Below, one piece after another: positions 32,096 through 55,650 of a stretch of DNA of 64,000 nt. Within the stretch, counting starts at the first letter, position 1. Each line of letters begins with the position of its first letter. The translations under genes were made by a program, and so were the position numbers. The notes under the pieces were generated by a model that saw nothing but the letters and a program-made list of their open reading frames with translations, searched no databases and was not told the origin of the DNA. This stretch comes from Shouchella clausii. Lineage in GTDB: Bacteria; Bacillota; Bacilli; Bacillales; Bacillaceae_D. The DNA lies in the NCBI RefSeq assembly GCF_002250115.1, contig NZ_CP019985.1, positions 3,224,001-3,288,000 of the forward strand, in the 5' to 3' direction.

Positions 32096-33172
32096 TCATT
32101 TTGCTGATGTTTCCTCTTGGGCATTTAAGCGGAACAAACCTGCTTCTATTGCCGAACGGACGGCAATGTAAACAAAAGGCCCTAAAATCAATCCCATGAC
32201 ACCGAAGAATACAAAACCAAAGTACATTGACAGCACGGTTGGCAATGCATTTAAACCAATTGAGTCACCTAAAACTTTTGGTTCGATGATCCGGCGCAAA
32301 ATCAACAGCACGAGGGCGAGCACCATCAATTGAATGCCCATTGCCGTATTCCCAAGTATGATAGCGACCAAGCCCCATGGTACTAGAATAAGGGCAGGCC
32401 CGACATACAATGGAATAATGTCGACTACCCAAATCAAAATCGACATAATCAAGGCAGAGCTGGGAGCAATAAATAATAAGCTGATATAACAGGCTAGGAA
32501 GACGCCGATGCTTAAAATAAATTGCGCTTTCCAATAGCCTAAAAACACTTTGCCCATTCGTCGAAAAACGAATTGTAGTTTTTGTGACGTTTCGTCTTTA
32601 AATAAATTGAACGTGTTGCTGAGCAAACGCGGCAAATCAAGGCTAAATAAGAAAAGGGTGATGATGTATACAAGAGTAACAAACAGCAAGTTAGGGATCG
32701 ATTGGAGCCACGCTGCAATCGTTGTAATGACTGTGGCTGTAAACCCCAGCACGGCATCAACAGCTGTCTCAGAAAGGCGTTGCAGTTCTGCGACAATGGC
32801 CGCTCCTTGAGGAATACGGTCCAACGTATCCGTGAAGTCACTAATTAGCTTGTCAGCGAACTGCTGGATTTCAAATGCATATTGGGGCAGCTGTAATGTC
32901 CAACCATAAATAGATTCAATTAAATAGCGAACCGTTATGTATAAAAGAGCACCACTGACAAACAAAAAGCCCAAAAACACAATCGTCACCGGCAAGAGCC
33001 GTTTTTCTTGTTTCATTTTCCTCTGTACAAACTTGACAAATGGCTCAAACACCATCGCTGTCAGCAGCGCCAGCAAAATCGGCATAAACGCTGAAAGATT
33101 AAAGTAGACAAATAATCCAGCGGCTGCAATGATTACAATCAAAAAGATTTTCTTCATGAGTGAACGGTTCAA
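32096..33172 (-). CDS. AI-2E family transporter (PerM/YtvI-like)
   Basis: 358 residues with seven to eight membrane segments, the usual pair at each end (residues 8-30 and 30-50; 210-340 in a cluster) and a soluble loop in the middle (about 80-150). Conserved family segment PLYVGPALILVPWGLVAI and KVLGDSIGLNALPTVLSMY. The family exports small molecules or sodium; the substrate is not known. TTG start with GGAGG 10 bases ahead. Confidence 0.85.
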   Translation of the reverse strand: MNRSLMKKIFLIVIIAAAGLFVYFNLSAFMPILLALLTAMVFEPFVKFVQRKMKQEKRLLPVTIVFLGFLFVSGALLYITVRYLIESIYGWTLQLPQYAFEIQQFADKLISDFTDTLDRIPQGAAIVAELQRLSETAVDAVLGFTATVITTIAAWLQSIPNLLFVTLVYIITLFLFSLDLPRLLSNTFNLFKDETSQKLQFVFRRMGKVFLGYWKAQFILSIGVFLACYISLLFIAPSSALIMSILIWVVDIIPLYVGPALILVPWGLVAIILGNTAMGIQLMVLALVLLILRRIIEPKVLGDSIGLNALPTVLSMYFGFVFFGVMGLILGPFVYIAVRSAIEAGLFRLNAQEETSAK

Positions 33173-33355
33173 CTATTGAAAACCTCCTACGCATACAAAA
33201 CAAATGGAAAGTGTTCCTAGATATGAGAACATCCTTTTTAAAAAAGAATGATGCCGGACAAAGGTGCCCCTTTCCATTATAGCTTAAACCGTCCAATCTA
33301 AAAACGAAAAGCACTGGAATCACGCAGAAAATTTTTTTGGCTGTTTCGTTAGCAC

Positions 33356-33437
33356 AAAAGCCCTTTTGAAAGGGCTCAGACTGTAGACAAATGCTCCCAT
33401 ATTTCGTTGTTTGGCAAGCGTTTTCTATCAGTCTGAG
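33356..33437 (-). other. Structured repeat element with terminator (copy A)
   Basis: On the minus strand: CTCAGACTGATAGAAAACGC pairs with GCATTTGTCTACAGTCTGAG (ends TCAGACTG/CAGTCTGA), directly followed by the terminator hairpin AGCCCTTT-CA-AAAGGGCT and TTTTG. It starts 7 bases after the CopC-domain gene stop codon. Related copies at 35.7 and 37.0 kb. Confidence 0.7.
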
Positions 33438-33443
33438 GCATTT

Positions 33444-34019
33444 TTATGATTTGCGTTTGCGTGAAACGGTAAAAATGACGAGCGCTACAATAAAAAGGCC
33501 AGCAATAATGATAGAAAGCCAAAGCACAGACGTGCCAGCTGTGTTCGTTTCTTCTTCTTCTGGTCCACTTGCTTCGTGGTCACGATCTTGCTTCACTTCG
33601 TTTTCGTTTGCGGCATTTTCTTCCGCTGTACTTTCATCTTCAGGAGTTGTTTCTTCCTCTGCATTTACTTGAAACGAAAAAGATCCATCCAAAGAATGGC
33701 CGTCGTCGCCAATGTTTTGCCACTCGACTGTGTATGCCCCATTGCTTAGAGGTTCCTGTAATATCGCTGTCATCGATGTGTTGTCTACATCAATCGACTC
33801 GATCGCTGCCTCTTCATCTGTGTCGGTGTTTGTGATCGTCATATCCGCTGTGCCAATCCCGCCATCGAAAGTAACGTGGATTTCCGTAACAGGTTCATTG
33901 ACTTCTTCGTTTTCACCAGGCGTTGATGATTGAAAATGGGAGTGCGCCCCGGCTGTGAGTGGAAAAGCAAACAATGGCAACAACAGAAAAATTGCAAGAC
34001 TTAACCGTTTAAAAAACAT
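33444..34019 (-). CDS. CopC-domain protein with C-terminal membrane anchor
   Basis: 191 residues from ATG at 34019 (GGAGG ahead). Signal peptide 1-27 ending AGAHSHFQS, so mature His1 could ligate copper as in CopC/PcoC; a cupredoxin-like domain follows (EIHVTFDGGIGTADMTI ... WQNIGDDGHSLDGSFSFQV). Then a Glu/Thr-rich linker and a C-terminal membrane helix followed by RKRKS. Probably a membrane-anchored extracellular copper-binding protein. The fused CopD or YcnJ-type transporter domain is absent. Confidence 0.85.
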   Translation of the reverse strand: MFFKRLSLAIFLLLPLFAFPLTAGAHSHFQSSTPGENEEVNEPVTEIHVTFDGGIGTADMTITNTDTDEEAAIESIDVDNTSMTAILQEPLSNGAYTVEWQNIGDDGHSLDGSFSFQVNAEEETTPEDESTAEENAANENEVKQDRDHEASGPEEEETNTAGTSVLWLSIIIAGLFIVALVIFTVSRKRKS

Positions 34020-34110
34020 GTAAGAATATCCTCCATTCATCTTTAAGTGCGATGCTAGTATAACAAGAAATTGTGAGCACTTAATGAAATTAGCCGTTGT
34101 TTATAAATTG

Positions 34111-34123
34111 TTCACAATGTGAA
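34111..34123. promoter_or_regulatory. Palindrome between divergent genes
   Basis: TTCACA-A-TGTGAA is a perfect inverted repeat about 90 bases upstream of the CopC-domain gene, with ATTGTGAGCAC at 34070 as a partial second copy. Could be a regulator site; which regulator is unknown. Confidence 0.4.
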
Positions 34124-34294
34124 TGGGAACAACATCTTGTATACAAACGAGGCTAGTCATGCTGCTTGATAAATAGTATAGACAAATTTTCACCCGTTCA
34201 TAAGGGACTGTGCTTCTGTCAGCCGCCAATCTCCTGTTCACATAAACGGTTGTTTTTACGCGCAAGCTAATTCCATCTGGATCGGAAAGGGGAC

Positions 34295-34495
34295 ATGTCT
34301 GTGAAACGGCATTGGGTGGTTGCAGCGGTTGTGTCTTTCTATTTGACTGTCAAGTGGGCAAGCCGAAAGGAGGCAATCCAACGACAGGCGGTGCCTCGCA
34401 ACGAAGAATTTTCAAATGAGTTTTACCCGCTGGACAGCGATGGGCTAGTGACTAGCTCGCACATTGGGAAGTTGCTACGGCAACTCTTGCAATAG
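34295..34495 (+). CDS. Small hypothetical protein, 66 residues
   Basis: ATG behind AAAGGGGAC. A short N-terminal hydrophobic stretch (VVAAVVSFYLTVKWA) then a soluble, charged part ending GKLLRQLLQ. May be a membrane-anchored peptide. No family recognised. Confidence 0.6.
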   Translation: MSVKRHWVVAAVVSFYLTVKWASRKEAIQRQAVPRNEEFSNEFYPLDSDGLVTSSHIGKLLRQLLQ

Positions 34496-34555
34496 CCTCG
34501 TCCACTAGATCATGTTAAAATGAAGCCGTACATTTTGTTAAGAGAGGTTTTTGCC

Positions 34556-35656
34556 ATGAACACCATCTGGAAGAACATAACCGACTATTTGATTGAGTTT
34601 CCGTGGATGAACCTGCTCACAGCAATCGGGATATTTCTTATTTTTCTCGTGTTTCGCAAACTATTCACGAAGTATTTGTTTAAAGTCATTTTAGCGACTG
34701 CTAAAAAAACCAATGTGCCTCTTTTAACGCAGCTGCTCCTTTCGTTTGAGCGGCCGTTGCGTGTTTTTTTTATCGTGATCGGCACCTACGTTGCTTTAAA
34801 ATCATGGGGCATTGATATGAAAGAACAGCTTTTATTGAACCGAATTTATGGCAGTGTGTTGATTGTGCTTGGCGGCTGGGGGCTCTATAATTATGTTTCC
34901 ACTCATGGGACGTTTATGGCGTTTGCCAAACAAAAATTGCATTTAAGAGACGACCATATGCTCATTCCTTTTATTTCAAACATTCTTCGTTTCGTAGTGA
35001 TTGCTTTGACAATCGTTGCTTGCTTGTCAGCGATGGGCGTGAACGTAAACGGATTTATCGCTGGCCTAGGTCTTGGTGGATTAGCATTTGCGTTAGCTGC
35101 CCAAGAAACGGTTGCCAATTTGTTCGGCGGTGTTGTTATTATTATGGAAAAACCTTTTAAAAAAGGGGATTGGATTTCTACGCCATCTGTTGAGGGTGTT
35201 GTAGAAGACATCACGTTTCGCAGCACGAAAATCCGCACATTTGCGGATGCGGTTGTGATTGTCCCAAACAAAACGTTGTCTAACGAAGCAATTACGAACT
35301 GGTCGGAAATGAATATGCGGCGTGTAAACTATTCGATAGGCGTCGGACAAGAAGCAACAAGATTCGAGTTGCAAAGAGCAGTTGAGCAGATTCGCGAACT
35401 GATTCTTAACCATCCTGGCGTTGTCCAAGATACAGTCATGGTTTATTTTGATGAATTTGGTGAATCAAGCTATAACATTTTTGTGTATTACTTTACGAAA
35501 ACGGTCGCTTGGTCTGAATGGCATGAGATTAAACAGGAAATTAACTACGATATTCTCGATATTTTAAGGGACGAAGGAATATCCGTCTTAAAGCCAATTG
35601 TTGTGTTGGACCAACAAGACGATGAACAGTTCCAAAAAGCTGGCGAATCATCTTAG
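34556..35656 (+). CDS. MscS family mechanosensitive channel (YhdY-like)
   Basis: 366 residues from ATG at 34556 (AGAGAGG 8 bases ahead). Four membrane segments in the first 190 residues, then the pore helix with GLGLGGLAFALAAQETVANLFGG and the beta domain (GDWISTPSVEGVVEDITFRSTKIR ... VVIVPNKTLSNEAITNWS). Opens on membrane tension to release osmolytes. A second MscS gene (ykuT-like) lies at 41.6 kb. Confidence 0.9.
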   Translation: MNTIWKNITDYLIEFPWMNLLTAIGIFLIFLVFRKLFTKYLFKVILATAKKTNVPLLTQLLLSFERPLRVFFIVIGTYVALKSWGIDMKEQLLLNRIYGSVLIVLGGWGLYNYVSTHGTFMAFAKQKLHLRDDHMLIPFISNILRFVVIALTIVACLSAMGVNVNGFIAGLGLGGLAFALAAQETVANLFGGVVIIMEKPFKKGDWISTPSVEGVVEDITFRSTKIRTFADAVVIVPNKTLSNEAITNWSEMNMRRVNYSIGVGQEATRFELQRAVEQIRELILNHPGVVQDTVMVYFDEFGESSYNIFVYYFTKTVAWSEWHEIKQEINYDILDILRDEGISVLKPIVVLDQQDDEQFQKAGESS

Positions 35657-35663
35657 CCGAACG

Positions 35664-35750
35664 GATAGAGAACGCTTGGAGCCAAGGGGAACAATAAAGG
35701 ATGCGAGCGTTCGTCTACAGCTGAAACCTTGCCTAACAGCAAGGTTTTTA
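35664..35750 (+). other. Structured repeat element with terminator (copy C)
   Basis: TAGAGAACGC (35666-35675) pairs with GCGTTCGTCTA (35707-35717, one bulged base); the motif TTCGTCTACAGCTGAAA (35710-35726) runs into the terminator AACCTTGC-CTAACA-GCAAGGTT-TTTA (35725-35750). Begins 8 bases after the MscS gene. Compared with copy A, one pair is A-T there and G-C here, and a C-A mismatch in copy A is C-G here. Confidence 0.7.
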
Positions 35751-35871
35751 GCTAGATTCCTTTGCCAAAGGGCGTTTTAGCGTTTTCTCTTTCTTTCGTG
35801 ACGAGAGTTCGTTATAATGAAAAGGCAATCATTCGTGACGTAATCTGAAAAAGAGGAGGGGCCTGGCTGCG

Positions 35872-35910
35872 ATGCCAGGTGTATCTTTGTATGAAGTATG
35901 TCAACATTGA
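35872..35910 (+). CDS. Possible upstream ORF overlapping the HD-GYP gene start
   Basis: 12 codons (ATG at 35872) with AGAGGAGGGG 10 bases ahead, the best ribosome site of the region; it overlaps the start of the next gene (35891) by 20 bases in another frame. The ATG lies in the loop of a CCTGGC/GCCAGG hairpin (35862-35879). It may couple or limit translation of the downstream gene. Confidence 0.4.
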   Translation: MPGVSLYEVCQH

Positions 35911-36907
35911 AGATGTTTTGCCTGGCGCATCCCTTGGGAAAGAGATATTTTCCATGGACGGCCAGGTTCTGTTAAGTAAAGGGGCTTCTTTAACAGCTAA
36001 CCATATTGCAAGATTGCGAAAATTTGGTGTCCATTTAGTGCCCCTTGATCTTCCAGAGGAAAGTGATCCTGAGGAGGAAGAAGCGTCTCCTAAAACGCAA
36101 ATCGATTCTATTTTTGAAGATTCCCTGCGTTTTATTGGCAATGGGGAAGAGGAGTGGAAAGAGCGTGTGTTAGCGGTGATGGAAAAAGTAGTGGAAACCG
36201 CCAAGGCACAGGAATTTCTTCAGTTTATTCGGAACGGAAGCGATTCCCTTTATGCCCACTCGCTTATGGTTGGCCTTATTTCGACTACAATCGGCGCCCG
36301 GCACGGGTATTCAGATAAAAAGCTCGAGCAACTGGCGATTTCTGCCCTGCTTCATGATATCGGAAAAGTGCTGCCTGCATCCTATGACGAGCCTGGCGTT
36401 TTGCATGGGTCAGACCATACGTGGAGAGGATACAACTTTTTGAAAACGGTAGCTGAGTTCGGGAAAGTTGTCGCCCATGTGGCCTTATGCCACCATGAGG
36501 ACTTTTCGCAAACAGGCCATCCCCGCAAAGTGGCTGCTTCGGCTGTCCATGAATTTGCGCAAATTGTGGCGATTGCCAACGCATTTGACCATTTGACGCA
36601 CCGTCGTGACGGAGAAGCATTGATGGAGCCTGGAGAAGCATGCGAATTTATGTTGGCTTTTACGAATAAACGTTTTAGCCATGTGTTTATGAATGACTTT
36701 TTGCGGAGTGTGGCCCTTTATCCGACTGGAAGCCAAGTCGTGTTGTCCAACGGCTTGCACGGCATTATTGTAAGCCAAAATAGCGGTTTGCCACAACGCC
36801 CTGTTATTCATATTTTGCATACGAATAACGGTGGACAGCAAATCACTGTGCAAACGATTGATTTGGCACAAGAGAATACGGTGTTTATTGAGGAAATTAT
36901 TTCTTAA
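35891..36907 (+). CDS. HD-GYP-like domain protein
   Basis: 338 residues from ATG at 35891 (AGGTG ahead). An N-terminal DUF3391-like part (KYVNIEDVLPGASLGKEI ... SKGASLTANHIARLRKFGV) and an HD domain from about residue 110: HS in YAHSLMVGL, catalytic pair in ALLHDIGK and the third ligand region HVALCHHEDFSQTGHPRK. The GYP signature HHE-x2-DG-x-GYP is degenerate (GHP here, DG missing), so c-di-GMP phosphodiesterase activity is uncertain. Family members hydrolyse c-di-GMP. Confidence 0.85.
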   Translation: MKYVNIEDVLPGASLGKEIFSMDGQVLLSKGASLTANHIARLRKFGVHLVPLDLPEESDPEEEEASPKTQIDSIFEDSLRFIGNGEEEWKERVLAVMEKVVETAKAQEFLQFIRNGSDSLYAHSLMVGLISTTIGARHGYSDKKLEQLAISALLHDIGKVLPASYDEPGVLHGSDHTWRGYNFLKTVAEFGKVVAHVALCHHEDFSQTGHPRKVAASAVHEFAQIVAIANAFDHLTHRRDGEALMEPGEACEFMLAFTNKRFSHVFMNDFLRSVALYPTGSQVVLSNGLHGIIVSQNSGLPQRPVIHILHTNNGGQQITVQTIDLAQENTVFIEEIIS

Positions 36908-36925
36908 ACGAAACGTGTTCGTTCG

Positions 36926-37125
36926 AGTGTGTTGCTAACAACGTTGGCAACACACTCAGACTGAGCGCTTATGGCGAGGGGAGATGCGAAGAAACGTGTA
37001 TACGGGCAATACGTTTTCTTGCGTGTGGAACAACTGTTCTAAAGCATAAGAGCGAGGCAAATGGCGATCTATGCCCGTGTTTGCCTACAGTCTGAAACGG
37101 ACGTTTTCGTTCGTTTTTTGTTTTT
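36926..37125 (+). other. Structured element with terminator upstream of the AEC gene (copy B)
   Basis: After an 11-base-pair hairpin (GAGTGTGTTGC/GCAACACACTC at 36924-36956) comes CTCAGACTGAG (36955-36965) paired with CAGTCTGA (37088-37095). Inside are pairings CTTATG/CATAAG and AAGAAACGT/ACGTTTTCTT. Then TTTGCCTACAGTCTGAA runs into the terminator ACGGACG-TTTT-CGTTCGT-TTTTTG (37097-37125), ending 16 bases before the AEC start. Confidence 0.65.
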
Positions 37126-37140
37126 AAGGAAGGTGTTTTA

Positions 37141-38037
37141 ATGGGGATTTTTTTGCAAGTTGTATTGCCCGTATGTTCTATTTTTGCGGCTGGTTTTTTG
37201 TTGCAGCGGGCATTTATGCTCGACATACGTTCAGTGTCAACTGTAGCGATTTATATTATGACGCCGTGCCTTGTTTTTCGTACTTTTTACACTGGCGATC
37301 TTGACGCCCAATATGCCTATATGGCCTTGTTTGCCCTTCTCCTGCTAGCGTCGTTAATTGTTATTACAAAAGGGTATGCAAAACTGCGCAAACTAAGTCT
37401 CAGCGAAGAAAGCGGGATGATCTTAGCAACTTCCTTTATGAATGTGGGAAATTACGGAACGCCGATTATTTTATTTGCTTATGGCGAGGGTGCCTTTGAC
37501 CTCGCTGTTTCGTTTATGGTGTTGCAATCGATTATCATGAATATTTTCGGCGTTTATTACGCAGCCAGAGGCAAAGCCGCTATGAAAGGGGCCGTATTAG
37601 CGGTTTTGAAAATGCCAGCAACGTACGCAACGGTCCTAGCGCTCGGATTAAATGTAGGTGGCGTCGCACTCCCGCCAAACCTTTTTCAACCTATTGATAT
37701 CGTCGCGGAGGCGGCCATTCCGACGGTAATGTTAATTTTAGGGATGCAACTAGCAATGATCCCACTGCGTGGATTTGCGTGGGAAAAGCTGACCGTTGCG
37801 ACGATCATACGGATGGCGATTTCCCCTATTGTTGCGTTTGTGATCGTATCCTTTTTGCCTATTAGCGATATCCTTAGCAAAGTGTTGATTATATCGGCGG
37901 CAATGCCAAGCGCGGCCACAATCGTGATGTATGCGGTCCAGTTTGATTCAGAACCAAAGCTTGTTTCCTCGATTACGCTCGTCACCACACTTGTCAGCTT
38001 GTTTTCACTGACGTTCTTTCTAGCGATTTTAAGCTAG
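37141..38037 (+). CDS. AEC family transporter (auxin efflux carrier type)
   Basis: 298 residues, about ten membrane segments, N-terminal QVVLPVCSIFAAGFLLQR and C-terminal SKVLIISAAMPSAATIVMYAVQF as in the family (malonate, malate or similar carboxylate permeases; YwkB/MleP type in bacteria). Proton-coupled export or import, substrate unknown. ATG at 37141 behind AAGGAAGGTG. An intrinsic terminator lies between the upstream element and the start, so expression needs readthrough or a promoter inside the short gap. Confidence 0.85.
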   Translation: MGIFLQVVLPVCSIFAAGFLLQRAFMLDIRSVSTVAIYIMTPCLVFRTFYTGDLDAQYAYMALFALLLLASLIVITKGYAKLRKLSLSEESGMILATSFMNVGNYGTPIILFAYGEGAFDLAVSFMVLQSIIMNIFGVYYAARGKAAMKGAVLAVLKMPATYATVLALGLNVGGVALPPNLFQPIDIVAEAAIPTVMLILGMQLAMIPLRGFAWEKLTVATIIRMAISPIVAFVIVSFLPISDILSKVLIISAAMPSAATIVMYAVQFDSEPKLVSSITLVTTLVSLFSLTFFLAILS

Positions 38038-53640: not shown

Positions 53641-55520
53641 GTGTGTGCCCGGCATGCGCATGGGCTATAGGGTTGAAGTCCCGAACAGTGAAGGTCACTG
53701 TAACTGTTAGCCGACGACAAGGGTGTCTGGGGCGACTCAGAATCTGAAGGAAGTCCGAGGCAAACCTCTGCTCCGAGGAACACGAATCTCATCAGGCGCT
53801 TATTCTTGGATGAGGCTGCACGACAAGTCGAAGTCCTAGTGACCAAAGGGGATAGGCGTAAATGAGGCGGAGACATGGAGGGGAAGGACATGCGCTTACC
53901 CGGGGAGATCTAGTGATCGTGCGGAACACGTTCCGTAACCACTTGTGTGAACAGGTGCTGAGACATTAGAAGTCAGCAGAAGTCATAGTACATGTCTGAT
54001 CTAGACAGACATGGAAGGACGGAATCAGGAAAGGAATAAGAGGACTTGGCGAACGCTGTACGTGTTGAAGCAGAAACATCTACGGAACCTACTCTCCCGC
54101 AAGAAGCGGTGAATCCCGCAGGGGGCTGGAGAGAGGGCGGAGCGTACAGCCACACAAGAAGACCCCTCTTATACGAAGGAGTAGAAATACATGTTGGATC
54201 AGATTCTATCAAGAGACAATCTCCTCCAAGCGCTCAAGCGCGTGGAGTCCAATAAAGGAAGTCCTGGTGTCGATGGGATGACGACAAAATCCGTCCGATC
54301 CTATCTCATGGAAAACTGGGACTCCTTGAGAAGGGCAATCATGGAAGGAACCTACTCTCCTCAGCCAGTAAGACGGGTCGAAATCCCGAAACCGTCTGGA
54401 GGCGTAAGGGCATTAGGCATTCCAACGGTGATTGACCGTCTGATCCAACAAGCCATCGCTCAAGTGTTGTCAAAGAAGATGGACCCAAGCTTTTCCGAAA
54501 ATAGCTACGGGTTTCGTCCAGGAAAACGGGGACATGACGCGGTCAAAAAGGCGAAGACGTATATCCAAGAAGGGTACGGATGGGTCGTGGACATTGACCT
54601 CTCGAAGTTCTTCGATCGCGTCCATCATGACCGCTTAATGAGACGTCTGAGCCAGATCATTCAAGATCGACAAGTGTTGCGTCTGATTAGACGCTACCTT
54701 CAAGCAGGGATCATGGAAAACGGACTGGTTCAGCCGAGTACAGAAGGAACGCCGCAAGGCGGACCGCTCAGTCCGCTTCTTTCCAACATTGTGTTAGATG
54801 AGTGGGATCAGGAACTAGAGAAACGAGGCTACCGATTCGTTCGTTACGCGGATGACTGCCAGATTTACGTCAAGTCACGACGGGCGGCAAAACAAACGCT
54901 AACAAAGATGACGACGTTCCTAGAGGATCGTCTCCGACTTCAAGTGAATCGGGAAAAGAGCGCATGGGGGCGCCCGTGGGAGCGGAGCTTCCTGGGGTTC
55001 ACCTTCACGCGCAACCGAAAAGACCCGAAGATACGAATCGCACCCACAAGCCTTAAACGATGTAAAGATCGCATTCGCGAACTCACCTCACGTCGCCACT
55101 CGATTGAGATGGAGGAACGAATTCGCAGACTGAATCAGTTTCTTATAGGATGGATAGGCTACTTTCAGTTAGTCGAAACGCCATCTTTCCTACAGAAATT
55201 AGACGCATGGGTGAAGAGACGCCTCCGAATGATCCGCTGGAAAGAATGGAAGAAACCGAAAACGAGACAGCGGAAGCTCGTCTCACTTGGCGCCAGGATA
55301 GGAAAAGCGTGGGAATGGGCCAATACGCGAAAAGCCTATTGGCGAATCGCGAAAAGTCCGATCTTACACAAAACCCTCGACTCTGCTTATTGGAAGAGTC
55401 AAGGGCTCAAGAGCTTAATGGAACGTTATGATACACTTCGTCAAACTTAACTGAAACCGCCGTATACGGAACCGTACGTGCGGTGGTGTGAGAGGTCGGG
55501 GGTTAGTCGCCCCCTCCTAC
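53641..55520 (+). mobile_element. Group IIC-type intron
   Basis: About 1.88 kb. 5' end GTGTGTGCCCGGCATG follows the pdhD terminator with a gap of one or two bases; 3' end has the domain V hairpin (CCGCCGTATACGG ... CCGTACGTGCGG, around 55456-55485) and domain VI (GGGGGTTAGTCGCCCCCTCCTAC, 55498-55520). An intact maturase is inside domain IV. Insertion behind an intrinsic terminator and lack of an endonuclease domain are hallmarks of class C. Boundaries are by pattern, accurate to a few bases. Confidence 0.88.
54191..55450 (+). CDS. Group II intron reverse transcriptase/maturase
   Basis: 419 residues, ATG behind GAAGGAG. RT domains 0-7 with YADD at residues 219-222 in FVRYADDCQIYV, SSGGVRALGIPTVIDRLIQQAI, PQGGPLSPLLSNI and the maturase domain X/GIIM (RRLNQFLIGWIGYFQLVE). 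No C-terminal endonuclease domain, as in class C introns. Appears intact. Drives splicing and retrohoming. Confidence 0.95.
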   Translation: MLDQILSRDNLLQALKRVESNKGSPGVDGMTTKSVRSYLMENWDSLRRAIMEGTYSPQPVRRVEIPKPSGGVRALGIPTVIDRLIQQAIAQVLSKKMDPSFSENSYGFRPGKRGHDAVKKAKTYIQEGYGWVVDIDLSKFFDRVHHDRLMRRLSQIIQDRQVLRLIRRYLQAGIMENGLVQPSTEGTPQGGPLSPLLSNIVLDEWDQELEKRGYRFVRYADDCQIYVKSRRAAKQTLTKMTTFLEDRLRLQVNREKSAWGRPWERSFLGFTFTRNRKDPKIRIAPTSLKRCKDRIRELTSRRHSIEMEERIRRLNQFLIGWIGYFQLVETPSFLQKLDAWVKRRLRMIRWKEWKKPKTRQRKLVSLGARIGKAWEWANTRKAYWRIAKSPILHKTLDSAYWKSQGLKSLMERYDTLRQT

Positions 55521-55650
55521 TCTATTTAGAGAATAGCAATGTGAGAAAATCTATTAAGAAAAATAAAAAAACAGAAAAAAACTTGCCGAAAAATCATTCG
55601 TTTGTGCTATACTTATCACAAAATTTACCTAGTACTCATGGAGGATAAAC

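Follow-up and report, generated by a model that had tools for sequence, protein, structure and literature searches.

Terminator-flanked structured elements of Shouchella clausii are probably old copies of a mobile element that duplicates its target hairpin

Three short stretches of a Shouchella clausii chromosome, here called copies A, B and C, each follow an open reading frame and run directly into a hairpin followed by a T run, which raises the question of what kind of element they are. They were found in one window, the 64,000-nucleotide stretch that was analysed (NZ_CP019985.1, positions 3,224,001 to 3,288,000), of a 4.52 Mb genome of the S. clausii group. The protein encoded at 34556-35653 is 98, 98 and 95% identical to its counterparts in Shouchella tritolerans, S. 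clausii and S. rhizosphaerae, respectively. The first-pass annotation of this DNA had pointed to three related stretches, each after a stop codon and each with a terminator directly behind it, and had proposed a family of 3'UTR elements, a mobile palindrome or a known repeat of the species. All three stretches are present and are recovered by our family model R1, and the placement between stop codon and terminator holds for each (Table 1). From sequence comparison, we consider it likely (probability about 0.8) that all three stretches are old copies of a non-autonomous miniature element (MITE) moved by an IS1182-family transposase.

Table 1. Parts of copies A, B and C and their terminators (positions in the window).
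Feature	Position	Strand	Basis
Copy A core, 59 nt after deletion of its inner part; no outer left end	33377..33435	-	R1 match 33377-33457, 38.4 bits; end motif exact
Terminator hairpin and T run, directly after copy A	33355..33376	-	Sequence
Copy B decayed core, inner part deleted	35662..35723	+	R1 match 35636-35724, 26.0 bits; inner motif
Terminator hairpin and T run, directly after copy B	35724..35749	+	Sequence
Copy C left terminator hairpin, diverged from the right one	36907..36923	+	By-eye comparison to the hairpin on the right and to the one hairpin in L059, L060
Copy C outer left end, forming a small hairpin	36928..36956	+	R1 match 36928-37094, 51.7 bits
Copy C core with an additional inner stretch	36957..37094	+	R1 match; own-genome relatives
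Copy C right terminator hairpin and T run	37095..37120	+	Sequence; comparison with L059, L060

Within 33000-37600, the R1 scores correspond to E values of 1.9e-11 for C, 1.9e-8 for A and 1.2e-5 for B; the whole-genome listing (86 places, E<=0.01) includes A and C, not B. The end motif TTYGYCTACAGTCTGA, thought at first to be common to all three copies, is exact in A (33376-33391, minus) and C (37080-37095, plus), with a mean chance expectation of 0.05. It has decayed in B, where one motif base is missing and no match was found allowing two mismatches. The inner motif GATAGARAACGCTTG had been assigned to A and C, and is instead common to A (33415-33429, minus) and B (35664-35678, plus). Likewise, the compensatory pairs described for A against C do exist, but read off the sequence they fit A against B. 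The C-A mismatch of copy A, taken as a second compensatory site, carries another base in three sister species; being private to copy A, it looks like decay. Copy B begins 5 nt past the TAG of the upstream gene, and the core of copy C has its best own-genome relatives at 76-77% identity across ~125 bases. Copy A is present in three sister species, and all of A, B and C were found in three named sister species, some with deletions, so that the three copies are older than the full copies described below. More distant relatives have a terminator without the element at the B site (four loci, L059-L062) and at the C site (two loci, L059 and L060).

The copies belong to a dispersed family. A 200-base query around C hit the genome 42 times at E<=1, and a 111-base query around A found 71. 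The covariance-model search that the first-pass annotation had proposed, carried out with R1, which was built from 20 full own-genome copies, gave 86 places at E<=0.01. The 20 full copies measure 152-191 bp, usually 154, and are close in sequence, and thus part of the expansion of the family is recent. Chance similarity of A, B and C is ruled out by the 86 dispersed places, the duplicated flanks (see below) and the sharing of motifs. As to the known repeat, Rfam at the gathering score placed no family on the window elements or in 35 further loci, and we recognised no description of the hairpin-flanked S. clausii element in the literature searched. At E<=10, Rfam matched nothing on the core in ten loci; one weak TD-2 match (E 1) lies beside the core in L077. 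An identity with Rfam tsr24 was rejected, since the weak matches in L079 (1-100, minus; 2125-2266, plus; 2556-2659, plus; sub-threshold, best 34 bits with gathering at 50) sit at other places than the element. They represent a separate repeat in genome G076, in which the core also occurs in head-to-tail runs (L113, L117, L149 and L150). In the window, three Rfam matches mark parts of a group II intron at 53726-55525.

Full copies are flanked on both sides by the same palindrome. By an automatic test, a flank of 15-30 bp is duplicated in 31 of the 58 own-genome copies tested (from the 86 places: the 55 best, one weaker, and window copies C and A), and 28 of these 31 flanks fold at -7 kcal/mol or better. 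When flanks were exchanged between own copies, no duplication appeared in 20 rounds. A looser test of 51 of 60 matches from 11 other genomes, leaving out one contig-end copy and eight second or tandem copies, found the duplication in 31, with 0-1 for exchanged flanks in 20 rounds. The automatic test scored no duplicated flank in the remaining 27 own copies, several of which keep a diverged left hairpin, as does copy C, whose left hairpin also went unscored; many of the 27 begin near an upstream stop codon. Of the high-scoring copies, the majority retain the two ends together with a duplicated target. A hairpin on the right-hand side of the element is present in 50 of 58 copies vs 55 of 290 nearby control windows. 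The target hairpins belong to unrelated genes. Moreover, the site at genome position 3645252 is empty in three sister genomes, which carry a single hairpin there and no element.

A candidate mover is encoded in the same genome. The transposase domain PF13751 occurs at nine places, five of which are copies of one IS of ~1.54 kb (L066-L070) whose transposase reaches 484.7 bits against the NCBIfam IS1182 family model (cut-off 270). This IS lies between duplicated hairpins in four of its five copies, the exception being L067, which has no duplication. Homologous ISs in G048, G050, G082 and G411 have duplicated hairpins in 14 of 14 copies among the matches listed, as judged by eye (14 copies of 41 matching rows, four of six genomes). 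Long direct repeats are catalogued for some IS1182-family members. The IS and its homologues resemble the element in having similar ends, each within a hairpin, and in making the same hairpin duplication; the own-genome IS differs in its length and in carrying a transposase gene. When eight element ends were compared with eight IS ends, each matched its best counterpart at 13-15 of 16 bases, whereas shuffled ends reached 12 of 16 in 3 of 10,000 cases. An autonomous element carrying the core was looked for and rejected: the core is absent from the ISs in the 30 IS-bearing loci scanned, and that in L065 is an old copy beside the IS. A second IS1182-family IS (L064, L065) has different ends, and no hairpin repeat was seen with it.

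The IS-like ends, the flanking hairpin pairs and the single-hairpin empty site together point to a non-autonomous IS1182-type element, and the mobile palindrome of the first-pass annotation comes closest to what we found. We propose that the transposase would pick its target by hairpin shape and would join the two element ends to the 5' foot of the stem-loop, one on each strand, in which case gap repair would place a complete copy of the hairpin on either side. The T run stays with the downstream copy, which should still end transcription; insertion would then be nearly harmless, and the mRNA 3' end would come to include the element. Loss of the left hairpin and the outer left end may often follow, which would leave the layout of stop codon, core and terminator seen in A and B. 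The element would thus be an example of a parasite that settles in terminators without breaking them.

In the staphylococcal elements IS1272 and TnSha1, which belong to the IS1182 family, the targets are inverted repeats without shared sequence, including gene terminators (PMC5678879, PMC4923244). According to the accounts of insertion sites in these papers, insertion replaces the target hairpin or deletes part of it, with no duplication seen. The likeness to the S. clausii element, as far as these accounts go, lies in the inverted-repeat targets and in an IS1182-family transposase, which for our element is the putative mover. The differences are that the S. clausii element has the whole hairpin duplicated, and that IS1272 is autonomous, whereas our element has no gene and a conserved fold. 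Removal of the target hairpin of the IS1272 type was not seen in the copies, which keep the hairpin on both element sides. Hairpin duplication was drawn as an alternative pathway by Wan et al. in 2017 (their Fig. 13, pathway b), who also cite a review for some IS1182 members targeting palindromes (PMC5678879). The copies described here would be many natural cases in which a DDE transposon has duplicated a whole target hairpin, an outcome sketched in the IS1272 work solely as an alternative pathway, and hairpin recognition by such transposases thereby becomes testable. Another likeness is to bcr1-bcr3 of the Bacillus cereus group, which are described as MITE-like, present in many copies and often transcribed within UTRs (PMC3446304, PMC6542083). 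Like our element they are multicopy and MITE-like, but their mobility, in the descriptions given there, is associated with TTTAT repeats and not hairpins; the comparison is by description and not by core sequence.

A mover other than an IS1182-family enzyme, that is, copying by reverse transcription of RNA, or another transposase, appears very unlikely to us. The many copies that lack the left end and start near a stop codon do look like truncated retrocopies, there is the group II intron in the window, and several element-rich genomes are without IS1182; but at both ends the element is similar to an IS that duplicates its hairpin in the same way, and the prevalence of both ends and a duplicated target among the high-scoring copies also argues against it. 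In terms of co-occurrence, an IS1182 match at 1e-20 was found in 12 of 18 genomes with the element, vs 9 of 18 without, and was not found in the other six element-bearing genomes. Matches over the family cut-off were found in 8 of 18 element-bearing genomes vs 2 of 18 genomes without the element (p 0.06). The own IS transposase is without a close homologue in the sister genomes G004, G006, G009 and G011, and G050, with 13 matching rows for the IS, yet has no R1 match. The other reading of this layout is a structured 3'UTR RNA, a stabiliser or regulator, spread and kept for its benefit to the preceding genes. It would explain the fold with compensatory changes and the position before terminators, and among tandem genes of the own genome we counted 20 sense vs 7 antisense copies (p 0.019). 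In the other genomes, however, the count is 13 sense vs 17 antisense, and all together it is 33 to 24 (p 0.29; gene contexts by a simple ORF caller), so a role for the host gene is not supported. The duplicated targets from unrelated genes, the IS-like ends and the loss of the inner core part in A and B also speak against a host function, which we regard as highly improbable. The 3'UTR option of the first-pass annotation fits where the copies sit, but this placement follows from the terminator target.

The core, the right part of the element, has 124 nt and is predicted to form a rod-shaped fold with conserved loops and compensatory pairs. Covariation is hardly testable on A, B and C alone, and the 20 recent own copies are too similar to tell (in RNAalifold, none of 41 pairs had both bases changed); we therefore turned to distant copies. 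In 35 cores from 12 genomes, aligned with MAFFT (alignment A5) and with the structure drawn from the folds of these same sequences, 30 of 47 pairs were changed on both sides; alignment A6 is fitted to the model. In the 35-core alignment, 85.8% of the cells are paired, vs 73.8% in shuffles, and the covariation score is 0.323, vs 0.139 (sd 0.007) when shuffled and 0.053-0.075 with the partners slid. Hence, the earlier suggestion of an RNA under structural selection gains support from the 35 cores and not from the base pair on which it was founded. Both covariation and better-than-chance similarity, the two properties whose absence was to speak against the first-pass annotation, were found.

We read the predicted core fold as being kept by selection on one folded strand, either RNA or single-stranded DNA. 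The rival explanation is that the compensatory pairs arose by DNA-level correction of a palindrome (template switching), the element being only a palindromic MITE. The rod is indeed nearly palindromic, to the extent that the model R2 scores the antisense strand too, and the terminal repeats form stems by themselves. Correction of this kind would hardly account for the conserved unpaired loops and the two conserved wobble pairs that persist in the core, nor for the 18 of the 30 both-sides-changed pairs that lie further in than the loop end of the outer stem (the other 12 are in that stem, which holds the terminal repeat). G-U pairs exceed A-C mismatches by 115 to 40 in per-genome consensus sequences of 37 genomes, most with one or two copies (10 antisense matches of 93 left out), in counts affected by shared descent; leaving out the variable helix and the two conserved wobbles gives 51 to 18. 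The excess is 38 to 10 in the outer stem, against template switching, and is missing in the tip (26 to 30), in its favour. Overall we consider template switching unlikely, although less so than the rivals above. With selection on a folded strand thus preferred, we give roughly even odds to a model in which one strand of the core acts folded, as RNA or, at the transposon end, as single-stranded DNA, in the life cycle of the element and not for a host gene. A widely conserved structured element that matched no Rfam family in these searches offers a role that can be tested.

The family extends beyond the species. R1 matched 15 of 100 genomes, own included, some in other families, and one genome has 81 places. 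With R2, matches were found in at least 31 of 398 genomes of the class at 1e-4, own included, and in at least 23 of 41 genomes of the genus g75 (2.0-3.0 Mb genomes), which is presumably Staphylococcus. At 1e-5, R2 matched at least 11 of 398 phylum genomes, own included, nine of them outside the class. Because filtering was stricter in these wide searches and few candidates were scored in each genome (8 in the class and phylum searches with R2), the counts are lower bounds. We must also note that the nearly palindromic rod gives R2 weak antisense matches, and so the weakest R2 matches need care.

It is conceivable, though we would rather doubt it at this stage, that the cores form a phylum-wide mobile superfamily of structured RNAs, in which a conserved hairpin domain would ride IS1182-type ends, its folded strand would choose or join hairpin targets, and in some genera the domain would have become fixed beside rRNA genes. 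Judged by its sequence surroundings, the core tip behaves as if it were a module. In L252, L255, L258 and other loci outside the class, the tip is flanked by different terminal repeats with a similar pattern.

In seven g75 genomes, a core relative in the 16S-23S spacer ends within a few bases of the 23S rRNA start (L159, L165, L167, L174 and L235 by cmscan, L166 and L171 by sequence); in L169 and L227 it lies further away within the spacer. Other core relatives adjoin 5S rRNA. Hairpin duplication was rejected as an account of the 5S-adjoining relatives: the repeated stretches are 37-158 nt long and partly do not adjoin the element, and none was found in three 23S copies. In L172, L179, L230, L238, L239 and L248, the relative follows the 5S rRNA and a second 3' part of the 5S gene, of the length just given, lies on the other side. 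With some of the 5S-adjoining relatives, the operon terminator is also duplicated on the other side.
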